Shown: one piece after another, positions 9,075 through 31,129 of the stretch
How positions within the stretch are numbered: position 1 is the stretch's first letter
Layout: each line of letters opens with the position of its first letter
Source of the DNA: a virus
Strand: one strand, 5' to 3'
IMG/VR virus record: IMGVR_UViG_3300047409_000754
Coordinates: 1-52,064 of that record
Length of the DNA: 52,064 bases
Position numbers and translations under genes: made by a program
Notes under the pieces: generated by a model
Seen by the model: only the letters and a program-made list of their open reading frames with translations
Databases searched by the model: none
Told to the model about the DNA's origin: nothing

Positions 9075-9281
9075 TCACTTGCGCCTCCCCTTCCGCGGCG
9101 CGCGCGTGGCGGCGTCGAGCTGGTCATGCGCTGCCAGCAGCAGGTCATGAAGCATCCGGTTCTGCGTCTGGTCGAAGATGCGACAAAGCACGCGCAACGC
9201 CTCCCGTTGCGCCCGCCTGATTCGCCGCCGCTCGCGCTCTGCGCCGACCTTGATCAACGACCTGAGCACTGGTTTGCTCAC
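9075..9281 (-). CDS. Hypothetical 68-residue basic protein
   Basis: It starts at GTG 9281, overlapping the upstream stop by GTGA. The protein is Arg-rich and helical (ERERRRIRRAQREALRVL) with a basic tail (RKGRRK), suggesting nucleic-acid contact. It is the last gene of its coupled block. Confidence 0.65.
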   Translation of the reverse strand: MSKPVLRSLIKVGAERERRRIRRAQREALRVLCRIFDQTQNRMLHDLLLAAHDQLDAATRAPRKGRRK

Positions 9282-9955
9282 CGTGCGCCTCCCCCAGGGA
9301 TGGGCGGGACGGCGTGGATGGGGTCGGCGCGCCCCTTGGCGCAGCACCATATGTGCCACTGATGCGGCCCAGGCCCGGCGGCCTCGGGCGGGGGCGGCGC
9401 TGGGCTGTGACTCGCCCTGGTATTCAGGGCCTTCAGCGAGGCCATGCGGCGTTCCAGCGCATCCACCCGCTTGGCGAGCGCGGCGACCTGGGCGAGCGCG
9501 TACGACTTGGCTTCGGCAATACGGTTGATCAGCGACTCTTCGACGCGAGCCTCATCGTCAGTCGCCTCCCCCTGCGCCTGCTGTTCTTCGGCAACTGCCA
9601 CGGCGTGTTCGTATGCTCGTTTCCAGTGCTCGACCTCCCGCCGCAAGTTCGTCACTGCCTCGCTTTCCTGCACCCCCTGCGCCTGCTCGGCTGGCGCGGC
9701 TGCGAGACTGCTCGCGATTGGGCACCATGGCCGGCACTCCTCGGCGCGGTACGTCCCACACCCGGGGCAATACGGATGCGCATTCGTGCCGCTCTGACAT
9801 TGCTCCAGCAACCGTCGCGCCTCGGCCAGCTTGCCCTTGAGCCGGTCGCGTTCGGCGCGCAGGGCGGCCTTGTCGCGCTCGGCTGACGCCAGTTTCGAGC
9901 ACGCCTCGCGGTACAGGTCAGTATAGGCGCCGCCGCCCTGATGCTGGCCGCTCAT
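9278..9955 (-). CDS. Coiled-coil protein with a Cys/His cluster
   Basis: This 225-residue protein has an N-terminal coiled coil (about residues 10-55), then HPYCPGCGTYRAEECRPWC, a likely zinc site, then a second helical region and a Pro-rich tail with HQWHIWCC. ATG 9955 overlaps the NAMPT-like stop by ATGA. The order of two coils around a zinc knuckle suggests a structural or scaffolding role, which is inferred only. Confidence 0.65.
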   Translation of the reverse strand: MSGQHQGGGAYTDLYREACSKLASAERDKAALRAERDRLKGKLAEARRLLEQCQSGTNAHPYCPGCGTYRAEECRPWCPIASSLAAAPAEQAQGVQESEAVTNLRREVEHWKRAYEHAVAVAEEQQAQGEATDDEARVEESLINRIAEAKSYALAQVAALAKRVDALERRMASLKALNTRASHSPAPPPPEAAGPGPHQWHIWCCAKGRADPIHAVPPIPGGGAR

Positions 9956-11424
9956 CGCGCGCCACGGGCGCGCGCGCGGATGACCTCGAAGGGTTCCCAG
10001 GCGATGAACGCCCCATCGCGCCAGACCGGCCGCAGCAGCGATTCGGCTTCTTCCCCCGCGGTGGCCTGGTCGTAGAGGCACAGCACGCCGCCTCCGCCTT
10101 CGCCGCTTTCGTCCACGACGCACAGGCGCCCCTTCGCCGAGTTCTTCGCGCCGTCGTCGGTGATCGGCTTCTTGAAGATGTCCCGGCCGACGCCGTCGAT
10201 CGTCACGTGGGTAGCCTTCATCGCGAAGCCGAAGGTGTCTCGCGTCACGTACTGGTACGAGTAGGACCCGATCCCCAGCACGACGTTGGCCGAGGCGAAC
10301 TCCTTGTCGTCCAGGCCGTTGAGGATGGCGCGGGCGCGCGCGTGGTTGATCGAGTCGCCGTAGATCGTCCCAATGTGGGGGTCGAGCAGCCGATGCTCCG
10401 TCTCGGTCTCGGAGCCGCCGAAGACGTCCCACAGGAGCTCGACGACGCCTTTCCGCTGAGGCGATCCTTCGGGCGCGAACGGGTCGCCGCAGATGATCTT
10501 GACCGGATCGCCCGAGTCCGGCCGGATGACCAACTTGCCGTCGCGCGCCAGGATGCGGTCCTTGAGCTTCGGCAGGATGTTGGTCAGCACGTTCCACAGA
10601 TCCCAGGTGTCCGAGACCACAGAGACGATCCCCGTCGGGTAGAGGTCGAGCAGCCGCTCGAAGGTCTCCAGCTCGCTCTCGGCACCGCCGGCGCACATCA
10701 CGGAATGCTCCGTCGCAGCGACCGATCCGCCGATCAGGTAGTTCGCCTCCGTCGGCGTGTAGAACTCCTCGACCAGCTCGATGGCCGGGATGGTGTCGGT
10801 CCCGGTGAAGAACAGCAGGTGACCGGCGCCCGAGATCGCGGCGGCGTCAGGCCCCTCCATCCCGCGAAAGCTGAAGTCGTGGCCCTGCCAGTCGACGAAC
10901 GCTATCGGGCTGCCCGTCCAGTCGGCGCCCTCTTCGAGGATCTCGCGCATCTGTAGCGCCGTGGTTGCCGACGTGCACGGCAGCCACATCACGCACGACA
11001 TCAGCGTCTCGAAGTAGTTCACGAGCCAAAAGAAGTCATCGTGCGTGTTCTCGACAGTGAGCATCGGAACGCGCAGGGGAACGCGCGTCCCCTCGGGCAG
11101 CGCGCGAAACTCCAGCGGCAAGTAGCCGAGGCGGTGCAGCGCGCGGATGTGGTCGGTCCCGATGCTGTTGGGGCCCAGGTAGGAGTTCACGCGGCGCGCG
11201 TACTTCTCGACCACTTCATCGATGGGACGACCAAAGAACTTCTCGTTGAACTCGTTCATCAGATACTTCTGCAGGAAGTACTGCAGACCGAAGAACACGA
11301 CGTCTTCCTGGCCGTCAACGCGCGAGCTGCGCGGCGTCCAGTTCGAATAGACGCGGGTTGTCTTCTTTGGGTACTGTCTGCGGTGGTCGAGTTTGTAGCC
11401 GTCGATCATGGTCATTGGGTTCAT
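9952..11424 (-). CDS. Nicotinamide phosphoribosyltransferase-like protein (NadV, or Namat of NARP1)
   Basis: The 490-residue length matches the NAMPT family, which joins nicotinamide to PRPP to make NMN; the related phage enzyme Namat uses ADP-ribose pyrophosphate and makes NAD+ directly. Family features include an N-terminal DGYKLDHRRQYP segment, FGLQYFLQKYL, the phosphate-binding VIRPDSGDP segment in the second half and IYGDSI...GIGSYSYQYVTRDT near the C-terminus. I chose ATG 11424, which overlaps the PRPP-synthetase-like stop by ATGA. No NMN adenylyltransferase is seen in the genome, which favours a NARP1-type function, but sequence alone cannot settle the substrate. Confidence 0.9.
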   Translation of the reverse strand: MNPMTMIDGYKLDHRRQYPKKTTRVYSNWTPRSSRVDGQEDVVFFGLQYFLQKYLMNEFNEKFFGRPIDEVVEKYARRVNSYLGPNSIGTDHIRALHRLGYLPLEFRALPEGTRVPLRVPMLTVENTHDDFFWLVNYFETLMSCVMWLPCTSATTALQMREILEEGADWTGSPIAFVDWQGHDFSFRGMEGPDAAAISGAGHLLFFTGTDTIPAIELVEEFYTPTEANYLIGGSVAATEHSVMCAGGAESELETFERLLDLYPTGIVSVVSDTWDLWNVLTNILPKLKDRILARDGKLVIRPDSGDPVKIICGDPFAPEGSPQRKGVVELLWDVFGGSETETEHRLLDPHIGTIYGDSINHARARAILNGLDDKEFASANVVLGIGSYSYQYVTRDTFGFAMKATHVTIDGVGRDIFKKPITDDGAKNSAKGRLCVVDESGEGGGGVLCLYDQATAGEEAESLLRPVWRDGAFIAWEPFEVIRARARGAR

Positions 11425-12239
11425 CGTGGTTCTCCTTTGAGCAGGCTTTCGCAAACGGGGATGACGGTGACGCCGTCGCGCGGGTCACCAATGATTGAGT
11501 CGGTGGTCAGGATGTAGCCGTAACGAGACCGCAGGGCCGCGGTGCCAGCCGAGAAGATTCCGTGCGTCACGAACAGGTCGGCTTGTACAAGCCCAAGCTG
11601 GTCCTTGAGACCGAGGAAGGTCCCGCCGCCGTCGCAGATGTCGTCGACGACGAGAACGCGACCGATGCCGGGGGGAAGGGGTTCGACGCCGAAGCCGGAG
11701 ATCTTCCCGGTTGCGACGTCGCGTTTCTTCCACGCGTGGAACAGCGGCACTTCGAGTTTCTTCGCGACGGCGCCCGCCCGCTTCTCCGCGCCTGCGTCGG
11801 GCGAGATGACAGCCGAATAGGACGCCTTCGGGAAGCAGTCGGCCGCGGAGACCGTCTCGCAGCGCTCGATCAGCGCCGGAGTCACCTCCGAGTGCGGGTC
11901 GACGACCGTCACGCGCGGGAAGCGCCGCGCGTTGATCATCTTCGCGACCGACTTCGCGGTGAACAGGTAGTCGCCGCTGTCGTTCAGGTGGTCCTGGCGC
12001 GCGCCGGGAACGAACGGCAGCACCAACTCTGGCGCCTTGTAACCGCGGTCGACGAGCGCATCCACCCAGAACATCGCCGTCACGAAGGCCGAGAACGACG
12101 ACGGCCGCAGCAGGACCCGCTCGACGCTCCGAAACGAGAGCATGCGATCCACGATCGGCATCCCGTCCGGGTACTGCGACACGCGGACGGACTTCACCTC
12201 GTTGGTGTCGGACGTCAGATACAGGATCTCGTCGCTCAT
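11421..12239 (-). CDS. PRPP-synthetase-family protein (Prs, or Adps of NARP1)
   Basis: This 272-residue protein is shorter than cellular Prs (about 315). Recognisable blocks are PFVPGARQD (75-83, equivalent to the Prs YxPYARQD), DPHSE (114-118), VISPDAGAEKRA (144-155), the KKRD catalytic-loop segment (171-174) and the PRPP loop VVDDICDGGGT (197-207). Prs transfers pyrophosphate from ATP to ribose-5-phosphate; the phage homologue Adps does so to ADP-ribose. Overlap with the NAMPT-like gene shows the two act together. Confidence 0.9.
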   Translation of the reverse strand: MSDEILYLTSDTNEVKSVRVSQYPDGMPIVDRMLSFRSVERVLLRPSSFSAFVTAMFWVDALVDRGYKAPELVLPFVPGARQDHLNDSGDYLFTAKSVAKMINARRFPRVTVVDPHSEVTPALIERCETVSAADCFPKASYSAVISPDAGAEKRAGAVAKKLEVPLFHAWKKRDVATGKISGFGVEPLPPGIGRVLVVDDICDGGGTFLGLKDQLGLVQADLFVTHGIFSAGTAALRSRYGYILTTDSIIGDPRDGVTVIPVCESLLKGEPR

Positions 12240-12520
12240 TTCGCTCTCCTTGGCTCAAGCTTCACCAGCGGCCCCAACGTCGGATGGTCGGCGCCGCAGT
12301 CCTCGCAGATCGCCGTGCGGGCCGTCGAGACGAAACGCCGGCAGCGCGGCTTGCAGCGCTTCACGGGCGGCGTCACCTCGGCGGACCCGTAGCAGCCGTG
12401 GCCGGGGTGCGGCGTTCCGTGCGCGACCACGCGGCCGACGGCGCCGTGCGCTGCTGCCCTGTCGCGGATGGCCCCGGCATGGGGCGCGCCGGTCAGCACG
12501 AAGAAGCGGGGAGCCCTCAT
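12236..12520 (-). CDS. Hypothetical 94-residue protein with Cys pairs
   Basis: It contains CKPRC and CEDCG, a likely four-Cys zinc ribb, in the C-terminal half. It is coupled by ATGA to the PRPP-synthetase-like gene. Function is unknown. Confidence 0.65.
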   Translation of the reverse strand: MRAPRFFVLTGAPHAGAIRDRAAAHGAVGRVVAHGTPHPGHGCYGSAEVTPPVKRCKPRCRRFVSTARTAICEDCGADHPTLGPLVKLEPRRAK

Positions 12521-18069: not shown

Positions 18070-19113
18070 TCATTTGCTCTTGCTTTTCTCGTTTCCGTGG
18101 CTAGCCGGCGGCGCTGGCTCGATCCTTCTGGGCCCCCGGCGTTGCTGGTCGCGCAGGATCCCGGCCTCGAAAACCTCGCGCGCGGCGGTGAGATCGTCGG
18201 ACGCCGTCTGGACGTAATCGCGGGTCTGATCGAGGCTCGCGTGCCGCAGCACCTCGCTCACGATCTCGATGCGTACGCCGCGCCTGGTGGCGTTGCTGGC
18301 GTAGGCATGTCGGCAGTCGTGAAGGTGCACGCGCCCGTCGGCGGGCGCAGCCTGGATGCCGGCGGCGTCGGCCGCCTCGCGGAACCAGCGCGAGATCGCG
18401 CGCAGCGAGTAGGGGCCGCCGGTGACGACGTTCGTCAACACGTAGGGGCTCCGCAGGTGCCGCGGGATCGCATCGATCGCCTCGAGCAGGCGCTGCGTCG
18501 CCGGCACGGGCCCGCCTCGGCCCCCCTTGCACGCCCAGCCGGGCAGAACGATGACGCCAGCGTCCCGGTCGATCCAGTCCCAGGACAGGTATCGGATCTC
18601 GCCGCGTCTCATCCCGGCATCGGTGGCGCACAGAACAATCACGCGCTGGCGCGCGCCGGTCTCGTCCAGCAGCGCGGCAATGTCGTGCTCGCGCGGCGCG
18701 GTCTCCCGATGCGACTTGGCCTTGACCCTCTTGGCGGCGGCGAGGGGATTGTGCGGGATCCTGCCCTGCGCGGCGCCCCAGTTCAGCATGACCTTCAGGT
18801 ACGTCAGCTCGCAGTTGATGGTCGCCGCGCAGCGGACGCGACCCGGCTTGCCGGTCGGGATCTCCTGGAGCTCGCGCTCGGCCCTGTAGTCGGTCCAATC
18901 AAGTACGCGGAGCGACATCACCTCGCGATCGGCGAGCGCCTTGACGACGTCGCGCAGCCGTACCTCGATCGCAGGCCACGACTTGCGCGAACGGTTCCCG
19001 GCTTCGTACTTGGCAAAGAGCTGCGCGACCGTGATCGACGGCGCACCCGCGCCGGCGGAGGCTCTCCGCTGGAGGATCTCCAGCGCGCGCGCAAGCAGCT
19101 CGTCGTCTGTCAT
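18070..19113 (-). CDS. int: Tyrosine integrase
   Basis: The 347-residue reading from ATG 19113 has the full tyrosine-recombinase set: the first Arg in GMRRGEI, HLHDCRH (H-x-x-R), LRHAS, and the nucleophile Tyr in TRDYVQ. The N-terminus has a core-binding helical domain (VAQLFAKYEAGNR...). A TTG start at 19155 would add 14 low-complexity residues. It would catalyse site-specific integration, so the phage has or had a lysogenic option. No attP was proved; candidates are the palindrome at 18055 and the AT-rich gap upstream. Confidence 0.9.
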   Translation of the reverse strand: MTDDELLARALEILQRRASAGAGAPSITVAQLFAKYEAGNRSRKSWPAIEVRLRDVVKALADREVMSLRVLDWTDYRAERELQEIPTGKPGRVRCAATINCELTYLKVMLNWGAAQGRIPHNPLAAAKRVKAKSHRETAPREHDIAALLDETGARQRVIVLCATDAGMRRGEIRYLSWDWIDRDAGVIVLPGWACKGGRGGPVPATQRLLEAIDAIPRHLRSPYVLTNVVTGGPYSLRAISRWFREAADAAGIQAAPADGRVHLHDCRHAYASNATRRGVRIEIVSEVLRHASLDQTRDYVQTASDDLTAAREVFEAGILRDQQRRGPRRIEPAPPASHGNEKSKSK

Positions 19114-19376
19114 TGAAGCAGCGCCCCCTGCGCCTGCTGCTGAAACCACCTCCAAAGCAAGGCGGGCATCGTCGCGCCAGATTTCTGACGCGTCGATGTG
19201 GACTAAGTGAGGAACTGTAATGAAATCAATATATTAATTGCGGTCTGCCTCATCGGTTGTTTCGAACCCCACGACGAAATCGCGGCGACCGTCGATCGTT
19301 GACACCGTTTCACCACTGAAACTTTATGGCTTCGCTGCGGCGCGTCCGAATCGACGCGGACGATTGCCTGGAAAGA
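19114..19376. promoter_or_regulatory. AT-rich gap upstream of integrase
   Basis: No convincing gene is present. The region includes an AT-rich island near 19220-19240 (caatatattaattg), and a plus-strand TTGACA at 19299-19304 with CTTTAT or TTTATG 17-18 bp downstream. An inverted repeat GTTTCA-CCAC-TGAAAC (19307-19322) lies inside that spacer. It may hold the int promoter, an antisense promoter or attP. Confidence 0.45.
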
Positions 19377-19601
19377 TCAGCCCTCGTCGTCGTTCACCGT
19401 TGGAGGTGTTCCGATCATCACGGGACTGTCCGTGTGAATGTCCCGCCAGAGCACGCCGTCGCTGTCCACGCCGAGGGTGAGCAGCATGATCCTCTTGCCG
19501 TACTCGGCGTTCGCGACGTTCACGCGGTCGTCGGGCGCGCTCGCGGCGGCAACGGACTGCCAGACCGGCTTCGTCTTGCGGGATCGTTTCGGCGTCTTCA
19601 T
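19377..19601 (-). CDS. Hypothetical 74-residue protein
   Basis: ATG 19601 overlaps the DUF5131 stop by ATGA. The N-terminus is basic, followed by a short beta-rich core (KRIMLLTLGVDSDGVLWRD). Function is unknown. Confidence 0.65.
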   Translation of the reverse strand: MKTPKRSRKTKPVWQSVAAASAPDDRVNVANAEYGKRIMLLTLGVDSDGVLWRDIHTDSPVMIGTPPTVNDDEG

Positions 19602-20371
19602 CGCGCCCCCGCAAATGGGAATTGCTTGAGAGACCACATCCAATCGGAGAGCCGCCCGCGCTTCCCCGGCATGCGCCCGCTGTCCTGCTTCACGAAGATC
19701 GGGATCCCTTGGTCGTGCAGGCGGTCCGCAAAGTCGACCGCGGAGTCGATGTCGAGCTCCCGGCGTTGGTCGTCGGGCCCGCTCTCTCCGCCGATGATCG
19801 CCCAATGAAGCAAGCGATCGCGTTCGACCGGCGGGCGCATCGGGCCCGGCATCATCGGTTCGACCGAGATGAACCGGACCATCGCGGGAACTTCACGCAG
19901 GAAACTCCATCGTTTGTCGAGGAGTTCCTGATTCTCGGTCGTGGTTCCCGCCCAGACGTTCGTGGGAAAGCCCCAGAGCCAGCTCTTCGGGACCGCGCCC
20001 ATGATGTTCTGGGGACGCTTCGTCAGCAGCAGCCAGTCAAGGTTCGGCGTCGCCTTGATCAGCGGCCAGAGACGATCCCGCTGCTCGGCGATCGTCGGAT
20101 GATCCTCGAACACATCAGCCATCGACGAGCAGAACACCCGGTGACGCTTTCCGATATCGCGGGCCATGCGATCCCACAGGATCGGCTCCTTCCAGTACTT
20201 GTCCGACAGGATCCGGCGCGCCGTCGTCTTAGGAGGCCCCCACACCGTGAGACCGACGCGCTTGGAAAAGGTCTCGGCATAGCAGTGGTCGCACGCCGCC
20301 GAGACCTTTTGGCAGCCCCACGCGACGTTGAACGTGTGGTGCGTCCAACCGATTTTGCTGTTCTCGCCCAT
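19598..20371 (-). CDS. Gp37/Gp68-family (DUF5131) radical-SAM-like protein
   Basis: This 257-residue protein carries the hallmark IGWTHHTFNVAWGCQKVSAACDHCYAE, with Cys spacing C-x6-C-x2-C, and later LLTKRPQN, NVWAGTT and GGESGP motifs. This family is widespread in phages and has a radical-SAM-like fold. Its substrate is unknown. It lies between SSB and integrase. Confidence 0.88.
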   Translation of the reverse strand: MGENSKIGWTHHTFNVAWGCQKVSAACDHCYAETFSKRVGLTVWGPPKTTARRILSDKYWKEPILWDRMARDIGKRHRVFCSSMADVFEDHPTIAEQRDRLWPLIKATPNLDWLLLTKRPQNIMGAVPKSWLWGFPTNVWAGTTTENQELLDKRWSFLREVPAMVRFISVEPMMPGPMRPPVERDRLLHWAIIGGESGPDDQRRELDIDSAVDFADRLHDQGIPIFVKQDSGRMPGKRGRLSDWMWSLKQFPFAGAR

Positions 20372-27200: not shown

Positions 27201-27276
27201 TGGAGCTGACGGCCGGCATCGAACCGGCAGCCTCCGCTTTACCGAAGCGGCGTTCTTCCTCTTGAACTTCGTCAGC
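27201..27276 (-). tRNA. tRNA-Thr(GGT)
   Basis: Acceptor GCTGACG/CGTCAGC, discriminator T, encoded CCA. The anticodon loop is TCGGTAA on a perfect 5-bp stem, so base 33 is C, not U. G1-C72 and C2-G71 fit Thr identity. Confidence 0.85.
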
Positions 27277-27277
27277 G

Positions 27278-27349
27278 TGGTGCCCCGGGCGGGATTCGAA
27301 CCCGCGCGCCGCTTTTAGGAGAAGCGGTCCGATCCATCCGGACCGGGGC
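27278..27349 (-). tRNA. tRNA-Arg(CCT)
   Basis: Acceptor GCCCCGG/CCGGGGC, discriminator A, encoded CCA. Anticodon loop CTCCTAA. The region between acceptor and D stem is shortened. Confidence 0.85.
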
Positions 27350-27350
27350 G

Positions 27351-27875
27351 TCATGTCTCCAGCGCCGTCGACCAGTACGGCAGCCACTCCGCCGGCATCG
27401 GTCCCGACCCCATGCGCACGGTCACCGTCGGCAGGTAGTGCGGCTTCTTTGGGCGCGCGCGCAGCTCGAGCCCGGCTTCGGCCGGCGTGCGGTCGGCCTT
27501 GTCGCTGTTGCAGTCGACGCAGCACGTGACGATGTTCTCCCAGCACGTACGACCCCCGCGGCTGCGCGGGATCACATGATCGAAGGTCAGGTCTTCGGTC
27601 GGCTTGCGCGCGCCGCAGTACTGGCAGGCGAAGCCGTCGCGCGCGTAGATGTTAAGCCGCGAGAACTTGATCCGAATCCGGTCGCGGCGGAAGCGCCGCA
27701 CGACGCGCACAACCGACGGCATCGGCACCGCGCGCGACACCGTTTGGATCGTCCGGTCGCGGCTGTGCTCGACCACCTCGACCTTCCCGAGGAAGAGGTC
27801 CGAGATCGCGCGCTGCCAGCTTTCGACGCGAAGGGGGCGGTAGTCGACATCCAGGAACAGCACGGCGGCGGACAT
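27351..27875 (-). CDS. HNH endonuclease inside the tRNA array
   Basis: The 174-residue reading from ATG 27875 (AAAGGAGA upstream) has the HNH module: YARDGFACQYCGARKPTEDLTFDHVIPRSRGG, then WENIVTCCVDCNSDKADRTPAEAG, with two zinc-type Cys pairs around the DH and N residues. This bacterial-type HNH family may be a nicking enzyme or homing-like element. It ends one base before tRNA-Arg(CCT). Confidence 0.9.
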   Translation of the reverse strand: MSAAVLFLDVDYRPLRVESWQRAISDLFLGKVEVVEHSRDRTIQTVSRAVPMPSVVRVVRRFRRDRIRIKFSRLNIYARDGFACQYCGARKPTEDLTFDHVIPRSRGGRTCWENIVTCCVDCNSDKADRTPAEAGLELRARPKKPHYLPTVTVRMGSGPMPAEWLPYWSTALET

Positions 27876-27890
27876 CGGATCTCCTTTGGT

Positions 27891-27966
27891 TGGTGGGCCC
27901 GCCCCGATTCGAACGGGGAACACGGCCGGTTTGAGCGGCCTGCCTCTGCCGTTGAGCTACGGGCCC
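27891..27966 (-). tRNA. tRNA with anticodon CAA (Leu), short variable loop
   Basis: Acceptor GGGCCCG/CGGGCCC, A discriminator, encoded CCA. Anticodon loop CTCAAAC. The variable loop is only about five bases, unlike normal bacterial tRNA-Leu, so charging identity is uncertain. Confidence 0.75.
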
Positions 27967-27968
27967 GA

Positions 27969-28055
27969 TGGTACGCGTGACTGGATTCGAACCAGCATTG
28001 GGCTTTCGCCACACGGTTTCTAAGACCGTTGAGTAGACCGTTCCTCCACACGCGC
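27969..28055 (-). tRNA. tRNA-Leu(TAG)
   Basis: Acceptor GCGCGTG pairs with CACGCGT (G1-T72 wobble), A discriminator, encoded CCA. Loop CTTAGAA. It has a long class II variable arm with a GAAA loop. Confidence 0.85.
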
Positions 28056-28060
28056 GTGCG

Positions 28061-28132
28061 TCTCGGCGCCTGGAATCGAACCAGGTTCGTCCGCTTATAA
28101 AGCAGCCGCACGCACCAGCGTGCTACGCCGAG
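28061..28132 (-). tRNA. tRNA-Ile(TAT)
   Basis: Acceptor CTCGGCG/CGCCGAG, A discriminator, no encoded CCA. Anticodon loop TTTATAA, one mismatch in the stem. It would read AUA. Confidence 0.75.
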
Positions 28133-28133
28133 A

Positions 28134-28207
28134 TGGCGCTGCGTACGGGGATCGAACCCGTCTCACTCGGGAGACAACCGAGCCGCGCCCCAGGCGCGTC
28201 ACGCAGC
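28134..28207 (-). tRNA. tRNA-Asp(GTC)
   Basis: Acceptor GCTGCGT/ACGCAGC, G discriminator as expected for Asp, encoded CCA, loop TTGTCTC. Confidence 0.85.
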
Positions 28208-28212
28208 AGAAG

Positions 28213-28281
28213 TACCGCCGGCGGGAGTCGAACCCGCAGGTCCTCGGTTCGGAGCCGGGGATCCGATCCATCGGCGACGGC
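28213..28281 (-). tRNA. tRNA-Arg(CCG)
   Basis: Acceptor GCCGTCG/CGGCGGT, A discriminator, no encoded CCA, loop CTCCGAA. Confidence 0.8.
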
Positions 28282-28282
28282 G

Positions 28283-28353
28283 TACGCCCGGAGAGATTCG
28301 AACTCTCAAAGGCCGCCTTAGAAGTGCGGCTGCCGTCCGATCGGCGCGGGCGC
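28283..28353 (-). tRNA. tRNA-Arg(TCT)
   Basis: Acceptor GCGCCCG/CGGGCGT, A discriminator, no encoded CCA, loop CTTCTAA with an A-G mismatch at the top of the stem. Confidence 0.78.
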
Positions 28354-28358
28354 GGAAA

Positions 28359-28808
28359 TCAAGCTCCGGGAGAAGGACTCGCACCTTCACTTCTCGGCGT
28401 AACAGGCCGGCGTGCTGCTTTGACACTATCCCGAAAAAACTGATGTTGGGCGGAACAGGATACCGAGCAAAAAAGAAACCCTCGCTTTGAGTGCTTGAGC
28501 CTCCAGCGCGCCCTGTTCGGCCGAAGCTTGAATTCTGTTTCGCACGTTGGGCAAATCGTCACGACCGATGGCGGAGCGCGCTCCAGTGAGTGATCGCGGG
28601 TATGTTCCGCCACCGTCTTCAATTCGAAATTGTCGAACCGATTGTCGCGTTTGTTCTCGTTCTTGTGGTGGATCAACTCGCCGGGCCTCGGCACCGTTCC
28701 GGTGTGCTGCCACCACACGAGATGATGTTCATAGCAGTACCGCCCGCGGTATTTCTTGCCCGGGTACTCGGCCGGCGCGATCACCAATTCGTAGGGGCCG
28801 TTCCGCAT
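28359..28808 (-). CDS. HNH homing-type endonuclease in the tRNA array
   Basis: This 149-residue protein has YCYEHHLVWWQHTGTVPRPGELIHHKNENKRDNRFDNFELKT, a typical HNH (HNH_3) active site with the EHHLVW...HHKN...DNR order, then a CPTC/CSVSC zinc finger. Its last ~25 codons run through the tRNA-Asn gene (28364-28435), so it may have inserted next to or into that tRNA. It lies between tRNA-Asn and the next tRNA. Confidence 0.82.
   Translation of the reverse strand: MRNGPYELVIAPAEYPGKKYRGRYCYEHHLVWWQHTGTVPRPGELIHHKNENKRDNRFDNFELKTVAEHTRDHSLERAPPSVVTICPTCETEFKLRPNRARWRLKHSKRGFLFCSVSCSAQHQFFRDSVKAARRPVTPRSEGASPSPGA
28364..28435 (-). tRNA. tRNA-Asn(GTT)
   Basis: Acceptor TTCGGGA/TCCCGGA, G discriminator and U1 as expected for Asn, no encoded CCA, loop CTGTTAC. 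It overlaps the 3' end of the HNH frame. Confidence 0.8.
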
Positions 28809-28860
28809 AATTCGACCCGTTAGGGAACGCGATGCCGGTTGTCCAGAGCCAAGTTAACGG

Positions 28861-28930
28861 AGCCGATCCGCAGAATCGAACTGCGCCGAGTGAGGTACAA
28901 ATCCCCTCGAGCTGCCCAGAGACGATCGGC
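28861..28930 (-). tRNA. tRNA, anticodon unresolved (TTG, TTT or TGT)
   Basis: Acceptor GCCGATC/GATCGGC and T stem CGCAG/CTGCG are perfect, with T discriminator. The anticodon arm GAGGGG-ATTTGTA-CCTC can be aligned several ways. T73 and G1-C2 match the two Thr tRNAs, so Thr(TGT) is possible. Confidence 0.55.
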
Positions 28931-28931
28931 G

Positions 28932-29004
28932 TAACGGGGGCCGGAGTCGCACCGGCTTTCTCCAGGTTATGAGCCTGGCGAGATTTGGACGGCTCGAGGC
29001 CGCC
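28932..29004 (-). tRNA. tRNA-Met(CAT), imperfect acceptor
   Basis: Anticodon stem CCAGG/CCTGG and loop CTCATAA are perfect, as is the T stem GCCGG/CCGGC. The acceptor pairing is poor, so the 5' end is approximate. It could be elongator Met, initiator, or Ile with modified C34. Confidence 0.6.
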
Positions 29005-29025
29005 CTCTGTTTCTCCACCCCGCAG

Positions 29026-29097
29026 AGCTTCCGCCGAGAATCGAACTCGGTTCTTCCGGGTACGGGCCGGATGCGTCGCCAGCAACGCTTCAGAAGC
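29026..29097 (-). tRNA. tRNA-Thr(CGT)
   Basis: Acceptor GCTTCTG/CGGAAGC, T discriminator. Anticodon loop CCCGTAC on a perfect stem, again with C33. Confidence 0.8.
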
Positions 29098-29105
29098 ACG
29101 AACTC

Positions 29106-29174
29106 GGCCGGCGCGCGCGCCAGAACGTCGAGGGGGAGTACCTCGACGGAGGAACCAGCACTACGCGACCGGCC
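29106..29174 (-). other. tRNA-shaped segment lacking a T arm
   Basis: Ends GGCCGGT/GCCGGCC pair as a 7-bp acceptor. A 7-bp stem GTCGAGG/CCTCGAC encloses a 7-base loop TACTCCC. Only a GC-rich palindrome (GGCGCGCGCGCC) sits where a T arm should be. It may be a decayed tRNA or another structured RNA. Confidence 0.4.
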
Positions 29175-29185
29175 TTCTTTTTCAG

Positions 29186-29256
29186 AGCACGGTGCGGGAA
29201 TCGAACCCGCGTTGCCTGCTTGGAAGACAGGATCTCAGCCACTAAGACAACCGTGC
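29186..29256 (-). tRNA. tRNA-Gly(TCC)
   Basis: Acceptor GCACGGT/ACCGTGC, T discriminator as expected for Gly, loop CTTCCAA. Confidence 0.85.
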
Positions 29257-29260
29257 ATTG

Positions 29261-29332
29261 AGCGACCAGCGGGAGTTGAACCCGCTCTCTCGGACTGGCA
29301 GACCGATGTGCAGCCACAAACACCTTGGTCGC
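29261..29332 (-). tRNA. tRNA-Gly(GCC)
   Basis: Acceptor GCGACCA/TGGTCGC, T discriminator, loop CTGCCAG. Confidence 0.85.
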
Positions 29333-29333
29333 G

Positions 29334-29408
29334 TGGAGGACGATCGCGGAATCGAACCGCGGATTGCGGAGGTTGCAGCTCCGTGCCTTGCCACTTGGCG
29401 AATCGTCC
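29334..29408 (-). tRNA. tRNA-Cys(GCA)
   Basis: Acceptor GGACGAT/ATCGTCC, T discriminator as expected for Cys, encoded CCA, loop CTGCAAC. Confidence 0.87.
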
Positions 29409-29413
29409 GTGAG

Positions 29414-29497
29414 AGGAGAGGGCGGGGATCGAACCCGCGCGACTGTCGTCGGCCTCGGTTTAGCAAACCGGCATCGTTACCACTCGATCACCTCTCC
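29414..29497 (-). tRNA. tRNA-Ser(GCT)
   Basis: Acceptor GGAGAGG/CCTCTCC, long class II variable arm, loop TTGCTAA. The discriminator is T rather than the usual G. Confidence 0.83.
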
Positions 29498-29498
29498 G

Positions 29499-29567
29499 TA
29501 CCAGCGGGCGGTGTTGATCCGCCCAAGCAGCCCGTATGAAAGGCCGCCGCGCGCCGGCGCCGCTGGC
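29499..29567 (-). tRNA. tRNA-Met(CAT), second copy
   Basis: Acceptor GCCAGCG/CGCTGGT, A discriminator, anticodon stem GGCCT/GGGCT, loop TTCATAC. The T loop is ATCAACA, shared with tRNA-Glu(TTC). Confidence 0.7.
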
Positions 29568-29571
29568 GTCG

Positions 29572-29641
29572 TACCCCCGAGAGGATTCGAACCTCCAGAG
29601 CCTGCGTTCGTAGCGCGGGCCGCCTTCCAATCGCCGGGGGC
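29572..29641 (-). tRNA. tRNA-Arg(ACG)
   Basis: Acceptor GCCCCCG/CGGGGGT, A discriminator, loop CTACGAA, one stem mismatch. Confidence 0.8.
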
Positions 29642-29642
29642 A

Positions 29643-29720
29643 TGGTCACCTGTGCGGGATTTGAACCCGCGTCTCCTGGATGAGAACCAGAGATCCTAAG
29701 CCGGACTAGACGAACAGGTG
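29643..29720 (-). tRNA. tRNA-Glu(CTC)
   Basis: Acceptor CACCTGT/ACAGGTG, A discriminator, encoded CCA, loop TTCTCAT. Confidence 0.83.
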
Positions 29721-29721
29721 A

Positions 29722-29795
29722 TGGTCACGCGTGCGGGTGTTGATCCCGCCTCGCCGGATTGAAAGCCCGGCTGCCTCACCGGAAGCGAACGCGTG
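29722..29795 (-). tRNA. tRNA-Glu(TTC)
   Basis: Acceptor CACGCGT/ACGCGTG, A discriminator, encoded CCA, loop CTTTCAA, T loop ATCAACA. Confidence 0.83.
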
Positions 29796-29798
29796 TTG

Positions 29799-29882
29799 AG
29801 GAGAGCTGAGGAGTCGAACCCCCAACCCGAAGGTTGCCCCCGGTGTTCGAAACCGGTTGGCGCCCGCGCGCCGGAACTCTCC
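29799..29882 (-). tRNA. tRNA-Ser(CGA)
   Basis: Acceptor GGAGAGT/GCTCTCC, long variable arm with CAACC-TTCG-GGTTG, loop TTCGAAC. Confidence 0.82.
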
Positions 29883-29886
29883 GTTG

Positions 29887-29954
29887 CGCACCGTCGAGGT
29901 GTCGATCCCCGTTGACAGGTTTTGGAGGCCCGTCTGCTTGCCGAAGCACAGTGC
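29887..29954 (-). tRNA. tRNA-Trp(CCA)
   Basis: Acceptor GCACTGT/ACGGTGC, G discriminator as expected for Trp, loop CTCCAAA with an open pair at the stem top. Confidence 0.75.
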
Positions 29955-29959
29955 AATCG

Positions 29960-30028
29960 TGGACCGCCCGAGAGTTGAACTCGGCACTCAGATCTTGCAA
30001 GGATCCGATGCGCCCCGGCGCGCAGCCC
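29960..30028 (-). tRNA. tRNA-Ala(TGC)
   Basis: Acceptor GGGCTGC/GCGGTCC includes the G3-U70 Ala identity pair. A discriminator, loop CTTGCAA. Confidence 0.87.
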
Positions 30029-30162
30029 GTGGACCCCGTTACGGGGGTCAGTCGTTCCGGACGCGGATTTCCCCGACCGGACGTCAGGGTGAGTGCCGCA
30101 ACCCGAAGGTTGCACCGAGAGGCAGGTGCGCCGCGCTTCCGTGTTCCTCTCGGCATGGCGAG
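30029..30162 (-). ncRNA. Structured non-tRNA segment in the array
   Basis: Three exact hairpins are present: GACCCC/GGGGTC (30032-30049), GCAACC-CGAA-GGTTGC (30098-30113), and a 9-bp stem pairing 30114-30122 with 30146-30154. The second resembles the tRNA-Ser(CGA) variable arm. It could be a decayed class II tRNA or a new small RNA. Confidence 0.4.
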
Positions 30163-30234
30163 TCTGCGCGGGGTGAATCGAACACCCGATCTCCTCGTCC
30201 CAAGCGAGGCGCCTTTCCACTAGGCTACGCGCAG
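30163..30234 (-). tRNA. tRNA-Pro(TGG)
   Basis: Acceptor CTGCGCG/CGCGCAG with C1-G72 and A73 as expected for Pro. Loop CTTGGGA. Confidence 0.87.
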
Positions 30235-30244
30235 ATGCTTCCAG

Positions 30245-30317
30245 GGTGACCGCCCGGTTTCGATCCGGGACCTCGACGTTCACAGCGTCGAATGCAGAGC
30301 CACTACACCACGGCCAC
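30245..30317 (-). tRNA. tRNA-His(GTG)
   Basis: Acceptor GTGGCCG/CGGTCAC with C73 as in His. The base at -1 is T, so G-1 is not encoded and would have to be added. Loop CTGTGAA. Confidence 0.83.
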
Positions 30318-30319
30318 AG

Positions 30320-30390
30320 TTCCCGCAGATGGATTCGAACCACCGTTGCCTGGGTCAGAACCAGGGAGCCTGCCGCTAGCTGATGCGGGA
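30320..30390 (-). tRNA. tRNA-Gln(CTG)
   Basis: Acceptor TCCCGCA/TGCGGGA with U1-A72 as in Gln. A discriminator, loop TTCTGAC. Confidence 0.84.
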
Positions 30391-30391
30391 G

Positions 30392-30463
30392 TAGAGGCGG
30401 GAGGATTCGAACCTCTCGTCGGGCGGTAATCGGCCGCCTGCACTGCCATTGTGCTACGCCTCC
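30392..30463 (-). tRNA. tRNA-Ile(GAT)
   Basis: Acceptor GGAGGCG/CGCCTCT, A discriminator, perfect stem GGCGG/CCGCC, loop CCGATTA with C33. Confidence 0.82.
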
Positions 30464-30469
30464 GTGCTG

Positions 30470-30540
30470 TCCGAGCTGGGGGAATCGAACCCGCGTCTCC
30501 GGTTTGTAGGACCGGGGCCCTCCCATTGGACGAAGCTCGG
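30470..30540 (-). tRNA. tRNA-Val(TAC)
   Basis: Acceptor CCGAGCT/AGCTCGG, A discriminator, perfect stem CCGGT/ACCGG, loop CCTACAA with C33. Confidence 0.78.
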
Positions 30541-30612
30541 GGAAACTGCGGCGCGGACTTGGGTTGCGTCCGCCTTGCGTCGATGCGCTCTTGAGACCAG
30601 CATCAAACCAGG
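30541..30612. other. Spacer with two hairpins
   Basis: GCGGAC (30553-30558)/GTCCGC (30568-30573) and GATGC (30582-30586)/GCATC (30600-30604) are both exact. No tRNA can be built from the whole segment. Confidence 0.4.
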
Positions 30613-30686
30613 TGCCCCGCCGCGGAATCGAACCGCGCCCTCCGCGTTTTCAGCGCAGCGCTCGTCACCTCGAGAGCTTGCGGGGC
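30613..30686 (-). tRNA. tRNA-Phe(GAA)
   Basis: Acceptor GCCCCGC/GCGGGGC, A discriminator, loop CTGAAAA. Confidence 0.86.
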
Positions 30687-30767
30687 ATTGTCGGCGGGGT
30701 TGGTCGCCCCGCCACCTTCACGTCAACTATTTAGTTGTCAGAGAATCGCCGGTGCTACCGGCGTTTG
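30687..30767. other. Spacer with three perfect hairpins
   Basis: GGCGGGG/CCCCGCC (30693-30713), CAACTA-TT-TAGTTG (30724-30737) and CGCCGGT/ACCGGCG (30747-30763) lie in a row. No gene is seen. They could be RNase processing signals or a small RNA. Confidence 0.5.
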
Positions 30768-30837
30768 TTCGAGGGGAAGGGGTCGAACCTTCACCAACCG
30801 CTTCAAAGGCGGTCTGCCTGCCGTTAGCTACCCTCGA
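30768..30837 (-). tRNA. tRNA-Gln(TTG)
   Basis: Acceptor TCGAGGG/CCCTCGA with U1-A72, A discriminator, loop CTTTGAA. Confidence 0.86.
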
Positions 30838-30850
30838 TCGTTTCCATTTG

Positions 30851-30922
30851 TGAGCCGCCGGCGACTTGAACGCCGCTGTCCTGATTAAGAGTCAGGTCCC
30901 TCGCCATCTAGGGGTGCAGCCC
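30851..30922 (-). tRNA. tRNA-Lys(CTT)
   Basis: Acceptor GGGCTGC/GCGGCTC, A discriminator, loop CTCTTAA. Confidence 0.85.
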
Positions 30923-30968
30923 GTTGTCTCTGCCGTTAGGGAAGGTTCTCCTTTCTGTCAACCTGCTG

Positions 30969-31041
30969 TGCCTCGAGTCGGATTCGAACCGACGATTCAG
31001 CGCTTAAAAGGCGCGGGTGATTGCCGCTTCACTACCGAGGC
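30969..31041 (-). tRNA. tRNA-Lys(TTT)
   Basis: Acceptor GCCTCGG/TCGAGGC, A discriminator, loop CTTTTAA. Confidence 0.85.
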
Positions 31042-31046
31042 TGAAG

Positions 31047-31129
31047 TGGGCGGCCCAGGAATCGAACCTGGTAGGGGATCTCCCCGGCTGCTTTACAGGC
31101 AGTTGCCCCGACCATGAGGCGCGTCGCCC
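31047..31129 (-). tRNA. tRNA-Tyr(GTA)
   Basis: Acceptor GGGCGAC/GCCGCCC with one A-C mismatch, long class II variable arm (CGGGGAGATCCCC), loop CTGTAAA. It is the first tRNA in transcription order, six bases after the terminator. Confidence 0.85.

Follow-up and report, generated by a model that had tools for sequence, protein, structure and literature searches.

The analysis concerned a linear virus record of IMG/VR with 52,064 bases, possibly a fragment, whose whole length is referred to as the window. A preceding inspection of the letters (the sequence-only reading) had reported an overlapping pair of a Prs-like and a NAMPT-like gene at 9952-12239. Both open reading frames are located at these positions on the minus strand and share four bases, ATGA. 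The assignment to the two families was confirmed as well, with matches far beyond chance (PRK09198, TIGR01251, phrog_448 and phrog_619). The pair and its neighbors comprise the following features:

12236..12520, minus strand: small gene upstream of adps, 94 aa, with an ATGA overlap with adps
11421..12239, minus strand: adps-like gene (putative ADP-ribose pyrophosphate synthetase, Prs fold), 272 aa; assigned by family matches, model, loop and clade
11421..11424, minus strand: ATGA shared by the adps stop and the namat start, 4 bases, read directly from the sequence
9952..11424, minus strand: namat-like gene (putative nicotinamide ADP-ribose transferase, NAMPT fold), 490 aa; assigned by clamp and core residues, model and clade
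10237..10269, minus strand: helix motif GSYSYQYVTRD of the Namat selectivity clamp (residues 386-396), a signature described in PMC12774641
9278..9955, minus strand: gene downstream of namat, 225 aa, with an ATGA overlap with the namat stop

The Shine-Dalgarno-like sequence AAGGAG is present close upstream of the ATG of both the adps-like and the namat-like gene. Because of this element and of the ATGA junction with the Prs-like stop codon, the namat-like gene likely starts with the ATG at 11424 (490 aa) rather than with the upstream TTG at 11454. ATGA overlaps exist at both flanks of the pair, which therefore lies within a run of probably coupled genes, and the 94-aa gene is probably located on one transcript with adps. 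Profile searches with this small gene gave no Pfam or PHROG match. The 225-aa protein encoded downstream is coiled-coil-like, as judged by eye, and contains a Cys/His cluster. A sigma-70-like promoter was not found around the operon, but the genome is GC-rich, so that this absence is uninformative.

Several other features of the window were recorded. Within about 4 kb (27201-31129) lie 28 tRNA genes, which cover many amino acids. A gene for a Ro60-like protein with TROVE and Ro60 vWA domains (42532-44142, plus strand; PF25045, 8e-61; PF05731, 2e-36) has the opposite orientation to the tRNA genes and to the pair. On the minus strand, a DUF5131 protein is encoded at 19598-20371 (PF07505, 2.5e-53) and an integrase match was found at 18070-19155 (phrog_1, 2e-42); the integrase match suggests that the phage is temperate.

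The NAMPT-like protein and its adenine clamp

The curated family matches of the 490-aa protein are nicotinate/nicotinamide phosphoribosyltransferases (PRK09198 with 537 bits at a cut-off of 405), and a search against PHROG assigned it to phrog_448 with 621 bits. Among solved structures, the top sequence match is the Namat of Bacillus phage SPbetaL1 (9W5X/9W5W, 533 bits), and NAMPT scored 226 bits. These two entries represent Namat bound to nicotinamide in one case and to NAD+ in the other (PMC12774641). Structure modelling, which had been proposed as a check of the sequence-only reading, led to the same protein: the AlphaFold2 model of the window Namat (pLDDT 91.6) has its best fold match in 9W5X (TM 0.93, 50% identity), followed by NadV of H. 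ducreyi and by NAMPT (TM 0.87).

The adenine of ADPR-PP is gripped by a clamp formed by one residue of a loop (R40 in SPbetaL1) and the helix GSX(T/S)X(Q/N)X(N/V)TRD (PMC12774641). The helix GSYSYQYVTRD of the window protein fits this published Namat-only consensus, and the aromatic residues at motif positions 3 and 7 are present. According to the alignment, Arg35 corresponds to R40, and the adenine-stacking residues R/Y/Y are the equivalents of R40/F392/Y396 of SPbetaL1 Namat. All residues of the SPbetaL1 protein in contact with NAM and NMN are kept, and the Nampt-like core is complete, with equivalents of D13, Y15, F189, R192, D215, A242, H245, R306 and D308, including the phospho-/catalytic His. 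In contrast, the GS...TRD signature is absent from human NAMPT, which has K/A/K at the clamp positions, and from four NadV-type enzymes, in which the alignment shows no aromatic residues at 392/396 (the KVP40-like phage enzyme and those of Klebsiella P-KP2, CcrSwift and Munch phages). The importance of the clamp is known from the double mutant R40A/F392G, which has lost the ADPR-PP-driven synthesis of NAD+ and still produces NMN from PRPP; this second reaction is also carried out in vitro by Namat (PMC12774641).

In a phylogenetic tree with 39 rows, NAMPT and the NadV-type enzymes of the four phages branch apart from the window Namat with a support of 100/100. The window protein falls into the starred set together with the assayed Namat of mycobacteriophage DyoEdafos (gp79) with a support of 99/98. 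NadV of H. ducreyi is also located inside the Namat clade, as sister to a Staphylococcus phage protein. This enzyme (9KE8, 9KEO; the entry 9KE8 was identified by a search) shares about 46% identity with the window Namat, but it lacks the adenine clamp: its clamp positions are E/Q/R instead of R/Y/Y, and its helix, GAQTYQRNTRD, departs from the Namat signature. Membership in the Namat clade alone is thus no proof of ADPR-PP use, and we rejected phylogeny alone as decisive for Namat; the clamp residues discriminate. The identity between H. ducreyi NadV and SPbetaL1 Namat is 57.6%, and the position of the enzyme in the tree, taken with its missing clamp, suggests a former Namat that has returned to the synthesis of NMN.

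The family phrog_12872 (547 positions) matches both proteins of the pair, the window Adps with positions 76-222 and the window Namat, in its C-terminal part, with positions 377-536. This double match may point to phages in which Adps and Namat are encoded by a fused or split gene.

The Prs-like protein and its ribose-phosphate loop

The Prs-like protein is a remote homologue of Prs, since it matched TIGR01251 (ribP_PPkin) with an E value of 2e-21 and 76 bits, which is below the cut-off of 113. The PHROG search assigned it to phrog_619 with 193 bits. Its AlphaFold2 model (pLDDT 91) shows the fold of a PRPP synthetase, but here the fold comparison was non-discriminating, as the top matches were all PRPP synthetases with no Adps among them. 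We found no solved Adps structure that would define the substrate residues of Adps.

In Prs, the loop DDxxDT(G/A)GT, including its Thr, binds the 5'-phosphate of ribose-5-phosphate. This loop is replaced by DDICDGGGT in the window Adps (DTGGT to DGGGT), and the Thr is exchanged as well in all eight named phage relatives that were aligned. In the viral and bacterial set used for the tree of 36 rows, DDICDGGGT is much more frequent than any other form of the loop. We interpret the loss of the loop Thr as a possible sign of ADP-ribose use.

Using this 36-row tree, we found the window Adps in the starred set with the assayed DyoEdafos Adps (support 97/96) and separate from cellular Prs (support 100/98); the deeper branches are weak, so that the tree does not show all Adps as one clade. 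A grouping of the two window proteins with cellular Prs and NadV, the outcome which the sequence-only reading had named as contradicting its proposal, was not seen, and both group with the assayed DyoEdafos proteins. The same reading had described the Prs-like protein as shortened, with 272 residues. The length is correct, but a shortening peculiar to this phage is not: the Adps of SPbetaL1 also comprises 272 aa, so this length is normal for the Adps family and the window protein is not truncated. Taking clade, loop and partnership with Namat as the basis, we infer that the Adps half is probably specific for ADP-ribose.

Proposed role of the pair and alternative readings

In the proposed pathway a NADase-type defence would cleave NAD+ to ADP-ribose and nicotinamide. 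The Prs-like Adps would then move pyrophosphate from ATP onto ADP-ribose to yield ADPR-PP, and the NAMPT-like Namat would convert ADPR-PP and nicotinamide to NAD+ in one step, without an NMN adenylyltransferase.

The assayed references for this system (NARP1) are DyoEdafos and SPbetaL1, and for Vibrio phage ICP1 the evidence is genetic. Adps and Namat of DyoEdafos produce NAD+ from linear ADP-ribose and nicotinamide in vitro (PMC13232231). The window shares the gene order and the clades of both proteins with the DyoEdafos system (gp77 Adps, gp79 Namat), at identities of 53% for Namat and 34% for Adps. It differs in that the DyoEdafos genes are separated by a gene for a cyclic-ADPR hydrolase (RyDEP), whereas the window genes overlap. 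In E. coli, the Adps-Namat pair of SPbetaL1 confers protection against the Kongming defence; with mutations in the clamp, this protection is lost or reduced (PMC12774641). This system (9W5X, 9W5W) resembles the window pair in fold, core and clamp of Namat, in the length of Adps and in the location of adps directly before namat, but the window Namat is 52% and the window Adps 25% identical to the SPbetaL1 proteins. NrsAB of ICP1, which acts against the NAD-depleting defence Nezha (PMC11559045), has the same two-gene layout but is distant in sequence, with an Adps 27.5% identical to that of the window.

The NMN adenylyltransferase family PF01467 gave no match in the 52,064-base record, possibly a fragment, and the same search was positive in 14 of 14 control genomes. 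The claim that no such gene is located elsewhere holds for this record. It fits NARP1 but is weak evidence, because the record may lack part of the genome and bacterial hosts encode such an enzyme themselves. The layout of NARP1 (Adps plus Namat) recognized in the sequence-only reading is therefore seen here together with the adenine clamp, the grouping with DyoEdafos Adps and Namat and a record in which no NMN adenylyltransferase was found. By analogy with the assayed relatives, the pair very probably represents NARP1 and would rebuild NAD+ after an attack by a NADase-type defence; the choice of substrates, the formation of NAD+ and the function against a defence are predicted from these relatives.

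One alternative concerns the purpose and not the chemistry of the pair, and overlaps with the NARP1 reading: the two enzymes might serve general NAD+/ADP-ribose housekeeping in infection instead of anti-defence. The same pair is present on Bacteroidota chromosomes, and a housekeeping role has been proposed for the bacterial chromosomal copies (PMC12774641). However, the tested phage pairs, the SPbetaL1 genes and ICP1, counter NAD-depleting defences, and the functional ICP1 pair costs fitness without the defence, which speaks against pure housekeeping there (PMC11559045). We regard this purpose as unlikely for the window pair.

That the pair carries out an ordinary salvage by Prs and NadV, with ribose-5-phosphate converted to PRPP, PRPP and nicotinamide to NMN, and NMN to NAD+ by an adenylyltransferase of the host, is very improbable. 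The two window proteins have the folds of Prs and NAMPT, the PRPP activity which Namat keeps in vitro (PMC12774641) would allow such a route, and H. ducreyi NadV suggests that an NMN enzyme is possible within the wider Namat clade. Nevertheless, the window Namat has the full adenine clamp that NAMPT and the compared NadV-type enzymes lack, the Thr of the loop for the phosphate of ribose-5-phosphate is missing, and the window Adps lies outside cellular Prs. A NARP2-like pathway (NAMPT plus NMN adenylyltransferase) with its second gene beyond the sequenced fragment is hardly conceivable even for a linear and maybe incomplete record, as the adjoining partner is Prs-like and no adenylyltransferase, PF01467 is without a match in the 52 kb, and the window Namat bears the clamp missing from the phage NadV-type enzymes examined.

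Read as NARP1, the pair is a further case of a known and common phage anti-defence system and no new kind, and for the pair itself the finding is a confirmation. Its contribution is a divergent Adps with 25-34% identity to those studied, and it shows that the published clamp motif is sufficient to recognize NARP1 from raw sequence in uncultivated phages.

Distribution and gene context in relatives

Two viral searches, one with Namat and one with Adps, yielded 160 loci; the two result sets share some contigs. An Adps reading frame was present in the fetched flank of 78 of the 80 Namat loci; the other two start less than 500 bases from the end of the fetched DNA. Conversely, all 80 Adps loci contain a Namat reading frame, and the pair occurs in more than 100 viral loci. 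The strict helix motif was identified in 130 of 138 distinct viral Namat sequences and in all bacterial ones (80/80). The bacterial loci are mostly Bacteroidota chromosomes with about 60% identity, and Adps lies within the 4 kb examined in about half of them, in agreement with the bacterial NARP1 already published (PMC12774641). NARP1 of the window branch is thus widespread in viral contigs and Bacteroidota chromosomes.

Some relatives contain small genes between adps and namat (locus and position):

Macro-domain-like: L057, 5491-5928; L061, 5505-5981; L070, 3164-3664 (L061 and L070 with PF01661 just under the cut-off, L057 as judged by eye)
HAD-like: L045, 5609-5995; L073, 2604-3023; L175, 3591-3989; L237, 3539-3940 (by eye, without a Pfam match)
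KptA/Tpt1: L209, 2719-3255; L176, 3420-3971 (PF01885, 4e-51 and 9e-51)
Deoxyribosyltransferase-like: L190, 3494-3952 (PF15891)

Because enzymes of the macro and KptA types act on ADP-ribose or its phosphates, the corresponding genes may feed NARP1 in these relatives, much as RyDEP. Macro-domain and KptA families gave no match in the window record. A match to the RyR family was not found there either, a weak result since the controls also gave nothing. It seems quite doubtful that the genes flanking the window pair (12236-12520 and 9278-9955) take part in the rebuilding of NAD+ as additional components of the operon, for example for the supply of ADP-ribose or for opposing a defence signal, as RyDEP in DyoEdafos.

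The nearest relative of the window Namat (72% identity) is encoded on the Phenylobacterium MAG contig NZ_SCTC01000078.1 (L174) from an alphaproteobacterial bin, with Adps adjoining. This contig is possibly a phage contig and gives a hint to the host group of the window virus.
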